This document shows positions 13,740-20,140 of a stretch of DNA of 64,000 nucleotides, in pieces. The notes under the pieces were generated by a model. The model was not told where the DNA came from. It was given only the letters and a program-made list of their open reading frames with translations, and ran no database searches. The DNA is from Kineococcus rhizosphaerae (GTDB lineage Bacteria; Actinomycetota; Actinomycetes; Actinomycetales; Kineococcaceae). How positions within the stretch are numbered: position 1 is the first letter of the stretch; each line of letters starts with the position of its first letter. The position numbers and the translations under genes were made by a program. The DNA is taken from NCBI RefSeq assembly GCF_003002055.1, contig NZ_PVZF01000004.1, forward strand, positions 124,001-188,000, given 5' to 3'.

Positions 13740-14465
13740 TCAGGACTGCGCGCGAACGGCGCGGTGCAGCGCGACGACCCCGAAGGACAGGTTGCGCCAC
13801 GCCACGCGCTCCCACCCGGCGTCGGCGATGCGCAGCGAGAGCTCGGCCTGGTCCGGCCACGCGTCGATCGAGTCGACGAGGTACTCGTACGCCTCGGCGT
13901 GCGAGCTCACGAGCCGGGCCACCCGCGGCAGACCGTGGTGCAGGTACGCCCGGTACGCGCTGCGCAGCAACGGGTTCGGGATCGTCGAGAACTCGCAGAC
14001 GACGAGCCGTCCCCCCGGGCGCACGACCCGCGCCATCTCGGCCAGCCCCGCGTCCGGGTCCACGACGTTGCGCAGCCCGAAGGAGATCGTCGCGGCGTCG
14101 AAGACCCCGTCGGCGAACGGCAGCCGCGTCGCGTCGCCCACCACGAAGCCCAGGTCGGGGCGACGTCGCTTGCCCGCACGGACCATGCCGGTGGAGAAGT
14201 CGCACGGGACCGTCAGGACGCCGCGGTCGGCGAACGGCTCGCTGGAGCGGCCGGTCCCGGCCGCCAGGTCCAGGACCTTCTCCCCCGGCCGGGCGTCGAC
14301 GGCCTCGAGCACGGCCCGCCGCCACAGCCGGTCCTGGCCCGCGGACAGCACGTCGTTGGTGCGGTCGTACTTCTCCGCGACGTCGTCGAACATCCCCGCG
14401 ACCTGGGACGGTCGCTTGGACAGGTCGGCCAGTTCGCGCTGGGTCTGCACGTCGGAGGTACCCAT
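13740..14465 (-). CDS. menG: Demethylmenaquinone methyltransferase
   Basis: The 241-residue protein carries the UbiE/MenG signatures: [20 protein letters not shown] near residue 25, SAM motif [10 protein letters not shown] near 65 and [12 protein letters not shown] near 125. It methylates demethylmenaquinone with S-adenosylmethionine as the last ring step in menaquinone synthesis. ATG 14465 follows GGTGAG; upstream in-frame sequence is repeat DNA and not part of the gene. The reductase start is 46 bases beyond its stop on the same strand, and the menD stop is upstream across the repeat array at 14539-14751. Confidence 0.93.
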
Positions 14466-14538
14466 CTCACCAGTCTGGCAGCCACCCGCGATCCCGCCGT
14501 CCACGCTGGGGTCCTGCCGACGTGACTCCCGCCACCCC

Positions 14539-14751
14539 GCGATCGACGACTCCCCCGCGATCGAGGAGACGCGCACCGCGATCGAGGAGACGCGCACCGC
14601 GATCGAGGACCCGACTGCCTCAGGATCTCGCGCAGTCCTCGATCGCGGAGCGGAAGTCCTTGATCGCGGAGCGGAAGTCCTTGATCGCGGAGCGGAAGTC
14701 CTTGATCGCGGAGCGGAAGTCCTTGATCGCGGTGGGGGATTCCTCGATCGC
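14539..14751. repeat. Converging array of GATC-centred repeats, mostly 21-base spacing
   Basis: Four copies of GCGATCGA start at 14539, 14557, 14578 and 14599 (spacing 18, 21, 21). Six copies of the inverse form, T(C/T)GATCGC, start at 14639, 14660, 14681, 14702, 14723 and 14744 (spacing exactly 21). In the right arm the whole 21-base unit repeats (AGCGGAAGTCCTTGATCGCGG), nearly identical four times; in the left arm GCGATCGAGGAGACGCGCAC is repeated. The arms point at each other around 14622, so the locus is a large imperfect inverted repeat. It fills the gap between menG and menD. In both arms the unit keeps a seven-codon frame, but no start, ribosome-binding site or wider coding signal supports translation. 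Confidence 0.9.
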
Positions 14752-14756
14752 GGGGG

Positions 14757-16433
14757 TCAGGCGTCGAGGACCGCCGCGCGGACGGCGGCGGTGATCCGCT
14801 CCAGGCGCGGGCGCACGGTGGCGCGGTCGACGACGAGCTCGACGACGCGCAGCCCGGCGGGGCGCGCGCCGATCGCCGCGGCGGCCTCGGCCCGCGTCGC
14901 GGGCCGCACGTGCGGGACGCCGTACGCCGCGCACAGCGCGGCGACGTCCACGCCGTGCGGGGTGGCCACGACCCGCTCGAACGTCGCGCGGTCCACCGCG
15001 GCGGCGTGCTCGAGCGTCTCGAAGATCCCGCCGCCGTCGTCGTTGACGAGGACGACGGTCAGGTCCGGGCGCTGCTCCCCCGGCACGGGCAGCAGCGCGT
15101 TGACGTCGTGCAGGAAGGCGAGGTCGCCCACGAGCAGCCGCGTCGGCCCCAGCCCCAGGGCGACCCCCTCGGCGGTGGCCAGCGTCCCGTCGATCCCGGC
15201 CAGCCCGCGGTTGGACACCGTCCGCACGCCCAGCGGCCGGCCCGCCAGGTCGACGTCGCGCACGGCGTTGCTGGCCGCGACCACCAGGGCCGACCCGTCG
15301 GCGGCGCAGGCGTCCACGACCTCCCGGCCGGCCCACGGGCCGGTCAGGGCGTCCTCGTCGTCGACGACCGCGTCGATGGCGTCGGCGGCCAGCTTGGCGG
15401 CCCGGTCCCAGCGGGCGGCGAAGTCGTGCTCGGCCTCGCTGGCGGGACCGTCGACGGTCACCGCGGGCAGCACGCGGGCGGCGCGGAAGCCCGCGTCCGG
15501 CCACGCCCCGGTCGCGCTGACCACGACGAGGTCGACGTCGTCGCGGGCCAGCAGCCGCGTGACGGGCCGCGACAGCGTGGGGTGGCCGAACAGCACGACG
15601 CGCTCCACCGCGCCCAGCGGGCCCTGGGAGTCGAGCGCGTCCAGGAGCAGCCGGTAGGCGCCGACGGCCCGTTCGCCGCCGCGCGCCCCCGAACTCGGTT
15701 CGGCCAGCAGCGGCCAGCCGGCGTGCTCGGCCAGGTCGCGGGCGGCCCGCCCCGTCGCCGGGTCGGGGGCGTCCCCGGCCAGCACCAGGGTCCGCTCCCC
15801 GCGGGGCAGCGCGACCGGCTGCGGCGCAGGCAGTCCCGCGACCTCCGTCAGCCCCGTGGTCGACTCGGGGAGCACGTCGGGCGACGGGGTGAGGGGGTCG
15901 GCGAAGGCCACGTCGAGGTGCACCGGACCCGGGCCATCACCGCGCAGGCCCCGCGCGGCCGCCACGGCCCGCGAGACGACCGAGCGCCAGGCGGGGGCCT
16001 GCGCCCGCGGGTCCACGGGCGCAGGCAGGTCGGCGCTGAAGCGCACCGACGGCAGGAACATCCGGGGCTGGGCCTCGGCGGTCTGGCTGGCCCCCGAGCC
16101 GCGCAGCTCGTGCGGGCGGTCGGCGGACAGCACGACGAGCGGCACCCCCGCGTGGTGGGCCTCCAGGACGGCCGGGTGCAGGTTCGCGACCGCCGTCCCG
16201 CTGGTCGTGACGACGGCGACGAGTTCACCCGCCCGGGCGAGCCCGAGGGCGAGGAACCCGGCGGAGCGCTCGTCGACCCGCACGTGCAGCCGCAGGCGGC
16301 CGGAGTCCGCGGCGCGGGCGGCCGCGTAGGCCAGCGGGGCGCTGCGGGAGCCGGGGCTGAGCACGAGGTGTCGCAGGCCGAGCCGCACGAAGGCGTCGAC
16401 GAGGACCGTCGCGAAGGCGGTCGAGGGGTTCAC
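14757..16433 (-). CDS. menD: 2-succinyl-5-enolpyruvyl-6-hydroxy-3-cyclohexene-1-carboxylate synthase
   Basis: The 558-residue thiamine-diphosphate enzyme starts NPSTAFATVLVDAFVRLGLRH and has the SEPHCHC-synthase landmarks LSPGSRSAPLAYAAA (about 24-38), the ThDP-activating glutamate region RVDERSAGFLALGLAR, TSGTAVANLHPAVLEA and, near the C-terminus, the ThDP/Mg2+ motif GDLAFLHDVNALL followed by VVLVNDDGGGIF. It joins isochorismate and 2-oxoglutarate, the committed menaquinone step. The start GTG 16433 follows GGAGGG. It is divergent from a thioesterase gene with only 41 bases between starts. Isochorismate synthase (MenF), its usual supplier, is not in the window. Confidence 0.95.
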   Translation of the reverse strand: MNPSTAFATVLVDAFVRLGLRHLVLSPGSRSAPLAYAAARAADSGRLRLHVRVDERSAGFLALGLARAGELVAVVTTSGTAVANLHPAVLEAHHAGVPLVVLSADRPHELRGSGASQTAEAQPRMFLPSVRFSADLPAPVDPRAQAPAWRSVVSRAVAAARGLRGDGPGPVHLDVAFADPLTPSPDVLPESTTGLTEVAGLPAPQPVALPRGERTLVLAGDAPDPATGRAARDLAEHAGWPLLAEPSSGARGGERAVGAYRLLLDALDSQGPLGAVERVVLFGHPTLSRPVTRLLARDDVDLVVVSATGAWPDAGFRAARVLPAVTVDGPASEAEHDFAARWDRAAKLAADAIDAVVDDEDALTGPWAGREVVDACAADGSALVVAASNAVRDVDLAGRPLGVRTVSNRGLAGIDGTLATAEGVALGLGPTRLLVGDLAFLHDVNALLPVPGEQRPDLTVVLVNDDGGGIFETLEHAAAVDRATFERVVATPHGVDVAALCAAYGVPHVRPATRAEAAAAIGARPAGLRVVELVVDRATVRPRLERITAAVRAAVLDA

Positions 16434-20004: not shown

Positions 20005-20140
20005 GGGTCGTCTCCTGGGTGGGTGCGGATCGTGGGGGCGGGTCGCGAGAGCGGGTCGTGGGGGCGGGTCGTGAGGGCCTCGCCGGACGGAGGAGGTCGT
20101 CGCTCACGGCGGCGCCAGCACCCATCTTGCCGTAAAACCA

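Follow-up and report, generated by a model that had tools for sequence, protein, structure and literature searches.

Dispersed converging arrays of short tandem units in Kineococcus rhizosphaerae and their association with a nuclease-like gene

The window analysed here is a 64,000-nucleotide stretch of the Kineococcus rhizosphaerae genome (5.61 Mb; designated G000), in which an array of short tandem units occupies the space between menG and menD. Four forward units and six inverted units, placed by unit reading and scoring, converge upon a short centre as follows.

13740..14465, minus strand: menG (UbiE/COQ5 methyltransferase), downstream of the array and in the same direction as menD
14537..14753, no strand: the whole gene-less converging array, which folds as RNA
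14537..14609, plus strand: left arm, four forward units (14537-14549, 14555-14567, 14576-14588 and 14597-14609; steps 18, 21, 21) with spacers CTCCC and then GACGCGCA twice
14610..14635, no strand: centre of 26 bases between the innermost facing cores
14636..14753, minus strand: right arm, six inverted units (starts 14636, 14657, 14678, 14699, 14720 and 14741; five steps of exactly 21) with spacers AGCGGAAG four times and then TGGGGGAT
14757..16433, minus strand: menD (thiamine pyrophosphate enzyme domains)

The array is separated from the 3' end of menD by a gap of 3 bases and from the likely ATG of menG (14465, by eye) by 71 bases. The first-pass annotation had described four units facing six, with steps of 18, 21 and 21 on one side and five of 21 on the other, converging on position 14622; unit reading and scoring bear out this description, with a dyad at about 14622.5 and an array end at 14753, 2 bases beyond the end given there. 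Both arms are detected at period 21 by Tandem Repeats Finder, and the array is confirmed as real and far beyond chance. As RNA it forms a long hairpin from either strand (-142.0 kcal/mol for the plus strand and -127.7 for the minus strand), and the plus-strand hairpin has a z score of -9.3 against 40 shuffles. No T-rich tail follows the array, in agreement with the earlier opinion that it is not terminator-like, and the two facing arms and the 8-base spacers repeated within an arm equally uphold the opinion that it is not a CRISPR array. A pattern scan found no T-tailed terminators and no sigma-70 promoters; the scan allows loops of 3-8 bases only, and the window hairpin is therefore invisible to it. 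Rfam gave two microRNA-type matches and one sRNA match, all far below gathering scores, and no phage or plasmid records similar to the DNA of the locus were found. Elsewhere in the window, a 13-base tandem repeat, GTGGGGGCGGGTC (20019-20078), lies directly upstream of an epoxide hydrolase-like reading frame (by eye).

The window array is one of about 30 in G000. Its core, CCGCGATCRAGGA, occurs in 108 exact copies in the whole genome, where the reversed core has none, and in 3 to 14 copies in each of ten other Kineococcus genomes. The search for other genomic copies that the first-pass annotation had recommended is thus strongly positive, and a one-off neutral expansion is rejected on this ground. 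Neutral local tandem expansion would account for the identical spacers within an arm, which represent local duplication, but the same core and period recur with different spacers at about thirty other loci, so that this explanation is hardly credible. The facing pair CGATCRAGGA N8-37 TCCTYGATCG is found at 21 places in G000, two of which overlap in one array, and its reversed pattern at none; a converging pair of shortened G000 cores is absent from all ten other Kineococcus genomes. In the stretches fetched around the matches, 31 clusters comprise 151 units at up to 2 mismatches, and steps between units of the same direction are exactly 21 in 85 of 93 cases, one array having six units at period 19. 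The commonest plan is at least two forward cores facing at least two inverted cores. Lone matches at L037, L039 and L041, apparently intragenic, are left out of the folding, cluster and centre counts. Nine proteins encoded around the three neighbouring arrays of L044 are ordinary enzymes and transporters.

The conserved G000 unit exceeds GCGATCGA and comprises CSGCGATCRAGGA and, in addition, some spacer positions that are conserved in part (L047, L048 and L060 are also left out of this comparison of units). The cores are near-constant and most spacer positions are variable: core positions carry 1.0-2.0 bits and seven of the eight scored flanking positions 0.1-0.7 bits, values that are partly circular because the clusters were picked by core similarity. 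Core and period, and not spacers, are what the roughly 30 loci have in common. Centre lengths cluster at 8, 16-19 and 25-29 bases, and distances across the dyad at 21, 29-32 and 38-42. The long centres are unrelated in sequence; 17 of them are barely more alike than shuffled sequences (0.431 vs 0.414), and they are not buried hairpins (mean z -0.06 for the 17). The short centres are slightly more alike than shuffled ones in two sets (0.542 vs 0.468, n = 4; 0.492 vs 0.404, n = 5).

Other sequences occupy the menD-menG gap in two related genomes, namely a converging array of a different unit, GTGCTTGATCACCG, at period 16 in Kineococcus G008, and a long palindrome with GGAAAACACNCTTTCC in Kineococcus G006; the menD-based branching of G000, G008 and the pair G006 and G005 does not separate their order. 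The G008 core, GTGATCAAGCAC, has 121 copies in G008 and 0-2 in each of ten other genomes. The 34 G008 clusters that were fetched extend to 3.29 Mb (100 of the 121 places), and their steps are exactly 16 in 84 of 87 cases. Units of both G000 and G008 contain SGYGATCRAGSA, in which S and R are the two positions that vary in either genome. Ten converging G008 loops are alike (mean identity 0.874), whereas the G000 loops differ from each other. A few sites carry arrays in both genomes, other sites being empty in one of them, and the number of common sites is undercounted because the G008 clusters beyond 3.29 Mb are missing. At one G000 array site, an unrelated hairpin stands in G008 instead (by eye). 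A tandem GATCRAG pattern searched in 297 relatives gives 90 matches in G000, 109 in G008 and 1-12 in the rest of the genus; matches in other families reach 45 (in the 9.4-Mb genome G124), so that the pattern says little beyond the genus.

Several further repeats were seen in these comparisons. Seven G008 hairpins (L093, L097, L104, L106, L108, L112 and L118) have the loop TCCTGTCCACAA, with at most one base different and on either strand, and we take this loop to resemble the actinobacterial DnaA box. The word GGAAAACACNCTTTCC occurs 50 times in G006, is absent from ten other Kineococcus genomes, and belongs to a separate dispersed palindrome family (L248-L267) in which facing copies are mostly 42 bases apart. 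Palindromes containing GATCAAGGA occur in Micromonospora (L130, L145, L166 and L177) and Actinomadura (L143, L160, L167 and L194); several lie directly after apparent stop codons and are possibly further families of the array kind, although the scan that yielded them returned at least 118 stretches, many of which look coding.

The position of the arrays relative to genes and their folding bear on another possible function. In 21 of 27 G000 arrays (L041 and the doubtful L059 are left out here and in the gap count), no more than 12 bases separate an edge from a predicted stop codon, and convergent gaps are enriched in both genomes, holding 13 of 27 arrays vs about 13 of 117 other gaps in G000, and 12 of 34 vs about 11 of 98 in G008; genes were predicted by a simple codon model, and the context of a single array may be wrong. 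Folding is strong, with z below -2 in 26 of 28 G000 and 29 of 34 G008 arrays (plus strand, 40 shuffles each). Spacers are more complementary within a locus than across loci, at means of 4.73 and 3.81 of 8 positions (22 loci; permutation p 0.00025). These observations, together with the exchange of one G000 array for an unrelated G008 hairpin, speak for a selected function as bidirectional terminators or 3'-end stabilisers, that is, hairpins after stop codons that are free of U-tracts, with the core as a by-product of sequence exchange. On the other hand, a hairpin does not need a core fixed throughout the genome, and one-sided arrays (L051 and L063 in G000, L115 in G008) do not fold. Complementarity of at least 6 of 8 is found in 8 of 11 simple four-unit arrays and is mostly missing from the expanded ones (2 of 11; our own sorting), and in G008 a predicted stop codon lies 12 bases or less from the edge of only 10 of 34 arrays. 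The arrays are followed by about 2 T within 15 bases, and their hairpins lack the T run of an intrinsic terminator. Some fold follows menD in 9 of 9 genomes, an observation of little weight in G+C-rich DNA and made without shuffles. As the selected function of the arrays, transcript termination or stabilisation therefore seems rather unlikely.

At two clusters, one in G000 (L051) and one in G008 (L119), a gene lies between the converging arms. The two proteins are 50% identical; their matches to the MTES_1575, DUF559 and AbiEi models are weak and fall short of the curated Pfam cut-offs. The L119 site is occupied in G000 by L050: G008 has an array, the gene and a second array, where G000 has a single array with a 16-base centre. 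This contrast ties gene-less arrays to the gene-bearing form, whichever of the two is older. Homologues of the L051 protein are found in 5 of 11 Kineococcus genomes at E values up to 1e-10, and those of the L119 protein in 8 of 11, with G001, G005 and G006 added at 1e-12 to 1e-15 only; the G006 homologues are distant only. Where a Kineococcus genome has a close copy of the gene, it has just one, that of G010 being in two pieces; these pieces (L276 / L336) lie in two overlapping frames, and the gene looks broken or misassembled.

In total, a homologue occurs in 166 of 248 relatives, with at most 10 candidates scored per genome, as well as in five plasmid records and in no phage records. G026 has three copies with 46-50% identity to the query, and the flanks of one were fetched. 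Among 20 aligned proteins, Pfam matches at E up to 0.01 comprise MTES_1575 (17), AbiEi_1 (13), AbiEi_4 (6) and DUF559 (5). Eight residues are invariant in all 20 (E165, D198, E209, D211, G212, H216, R228 and R229), as expected for the PD-(D/E)XK-like nuclease class, and five of them (E165, D198, E209, D211 and H216) are of catalytic type. No related solved structure was found for the protein.

Arrays also flank homologues in other genera. In a flank test for which a 13-mer had to occur in two or more converging copies both to the left and to the right of the gene, taking the best locus per genome (n = 29) and leaving out L342, which is cut by a contig end, and duplicate loci of one genome, 17 of 29 loci passed, or 16 of 29 when G081, which has irregular steps, is dropped. 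None of 280 random windows passed (0/120 and 0/160), and in a gene-centred control only 1 of 220 predicted genes comparable in size did so, which proved to be the G033 nuclease gene itself. Periods are constant within most of the genomes that passed and differ between them (16, 18, 20, 22, 31, 32 and others), spanning about 18 to 40 beside the homologous genes of genomes other than G000 and G008. By reading, the flanking units start inward as CCGTGATC..., CCGCGA... or a similar head, followed by genome-specific tails, and those of six genomes (G139, G136, G222, G084, G185 and G094) contain no GATC. Thirteen of the 29 loci do not pass, eight of which show nothing convincing; the Nonomuraea homologue has no flanking arrays. 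G000 itself does not pass the strict test, with one copy on the left and six on the right, a second, more diverged left unit being visible, and neither does G080 (5 and 1). G003, G009 and G010, also among those that do not pass, have single palindromes with GTGATC, which flank the gene left and right in G003 and G009 and on one side in G010, where the other side reads N.

Arrays away from the gene occur in some further genomes. G185, a genome of another genus, has 15 exact GCCGAGGTAGTG copies at four places in 200 kb away from the gene (control 0), including one compact facing array (L386). G010 has two palindromes in 300 kb away from the gene, G009 no further exact copy of its gene-flanking palindrome in 230 kb, and G003 none in 58 kb beyond the gene flanks. 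In G033, three units stand in a row with no facing copy within the 20-kb stretch. At another G185 place (L384:5979-6451), five forward and, with a looser word, five inverted units of the GCCGAGGTAGTG type surround about 300 bases, an interior that is too short for a full nuclease gene.

These data bear on two other suggestions in the first-pass annotation. GATC and a spacing of two helical turns had been regarded as the essence of the array; with period 19 in one G000 array, period 16 and another core in G008, periods of about 18-40 elsewhere and six genomes whose units have no GATC, neither GATC, nor the period, nor helical phasing can be its essence. A role in chromosome structure or replication, in which proteins would bind sites aligned on the same face of the helix, would fit the steps of 21 in G000 and facing distances near 21, 31 and 40 that are kept despite unrelated long centres. 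The same variety of periods argues against it, as do sites that are occupied in one relative and empty in another, and we consider it improbable. The idea of a decayed repeat peptide fails since neither 16 nor 20, which both occur as periods, is divisible by three.

Of the systems already described, REP elements come closest (PMC3733652; PMC3116915). Like REPs, BIMEs and REPINs, the arrays are short, palindromic, dispersed, species-specific and often located downstream of genes, with an enzyme gene flanked by repeats, and they are extragenic inverted doublets able to form hairpins, as REPINs are. The first-pass statement that the array is not REP-like is therefore only half right: the RAYT transposase is lacking, but position and palindromic form are REP-like. 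Movement by a RAYT (Y1) transposase would suit these traits and the similarity of the ten G008 loops. However, Y1_Tnp (PF01797) is found in 0 of 11 Kineococcus genomes, with 5 of 14 control genomes positive, and the characteristic tags near the array edge are rare (GTAG in 1 of 30 and CGTC in 3 of 30 G000 arrays; 0 of 34 and 3 of 34 in G008), so that membership of RAYT-borne elements is rejected and this origin is very unlikely. CGTC-tagged REPs without a known transposase are likewise described (PMC3733652). The arrays further differ from REP-type repeats in their head-to-tail units with a fixed short period, their converging arms and an enzyme of an unrelated class.

Another comparison is with the DNA uptake sequences of the Neisseriaceae, which form dialects that differ from one relative to the next and can stand as inverted pairs close to the ends of genes (PMC3630211). 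Uptake sequences there number in the thousands, roughly a thousand or more copies being expected with many of them single, whereas about 110-150 units (108 exact cores) are found here, mostly in arrays, and arrays flank a nuclease-like gene; an uptake function thus has very little probability. In MITEs, too, inverted repeats without a gene match the termini of a form that carries one, here L051 and L119, but the G000 arrays have no conserved interior and the ends are tandem arrays. Moreover, there is no sign of target-site duplication, the longest word shared by the two edges averaging 2.33 bases vs 2.26 for cross pairs. The ends of Tn7-like elements contain several transposase-binding sites, and the repeated, mutually facing sites at both ends are reminiscent of the present arms; the gene between the arms differs in not being TnsB-like by Pfam matches. 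The AbiEi antitoxins of type IV toxin-antitoxin systems are similar to the N-terminal part of the protein. AbiEi-family proteins bind 23-bp inverted repeats, four of which stand in tandem at one promoter (PMC7319586). By contrast, the AbiEi-like part is here fused to a nuclease-like domain, and the arrays are dispersed and lie on both sides of the gene.

The units are dispersed, their sequence and period are genome-specific, and in G000 they stand mostly beside stop codons. The presence of arrays on both sides of a nuclease-like gene suggests a type of small mobile DNA about which little is known. Genes between converging regular arrays, which define the nuclease-associated array elements proposed here, are observed, and the window copy is gene-less. 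The best reading of the window array is that of a member of a mobile or REP-like, nuclease-associated family that perhaps also serves as a 3'-end hairpin. Probably it lacks the gene, is non-autonomous and belongs to a family of array elements that in full would comprise an AbiEi-like plus PD-(D/E)XK-like (MTES_1575/DUF559) gene between two converging arrays of short tandem units. The earlier suggestion of a sequence-recognising protein on the array is likely to be correct. Unit binding by the AbiEi-like part can fairly be inferred from the binding of inverted repeats by this family (PMC7319586); cleavage of the units, their multiplication through repair and the transfer of arrays to other sites lie one step beyond this inference. 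In this model of a nuclease-linked element, the AbiEi-like part would bind the array units and the nuclease part would nick or cut them, and repair of the breaks would expand units locally and carry arrays to new sites. Unit and protein specificity would drift together and give each species its own dialect. Behind a gene, an array can fold into a long hairpin and perhaps stop transcription arriving from either direction, which would render it tolerated or useful. A terminator role is compatible with this model; it may account for the arrays that stand after stop codons in G000, though not for the common private core.

Some observations count against the nuclease-linked model. There is no sign of target-site duplication, the flanks being no richer in shared direct words than cross pairs. 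The 13 homologue loci that do not pass the flank test, the Pfam matches below cut-off, the lack of a related solved structure, the missing further copies in G009 and G003, the unrelated palindrome family of G006 and the small share of G008 arrays near stop codons weigh in the same direction. The long G000 centres are hardly alike, which is odd for copies of one element, and a single close gene copy per Kineococcus genome leaves movement of the gene without support there. Neither the arrays nor the link between gene and arrays is reported among the open-access papers listed, which is weak evidence of absence, and the K. radiotolerans genome paper (PMC2587704) makes no mention of repeats, palindromes, intergenic elements or terminators. 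In a broader and more tentative form, the model may describe a new class of mobile element extending over many actinobacterial families, in which a single AbiEi-like/PD-(D/E)XK-like protein recognises a unit with a near-constant, CCGYGA-like head and a genome-specific tail, lies between converging arrays of this unit and seeds gene-less arrays along the chromosome, the tail changing with the protein and the arrays doubling as species-specific 3'-end hairpins.

The Pfam names matched by the homologues are only "protein of unknown function" and a putative restriction enzyme, and through the link to dispersed, species-specific arrays this branch of homologues gains a testable role. If the model is true, a nuclease of another class would stand beside the RAYTs as a partner of bacterial palindromic repeats. 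It could explain genome-wide differences in gene-end hairpins between related species, and it would offer natural pairs of protein and DNA unit for the study of how recognition changes.
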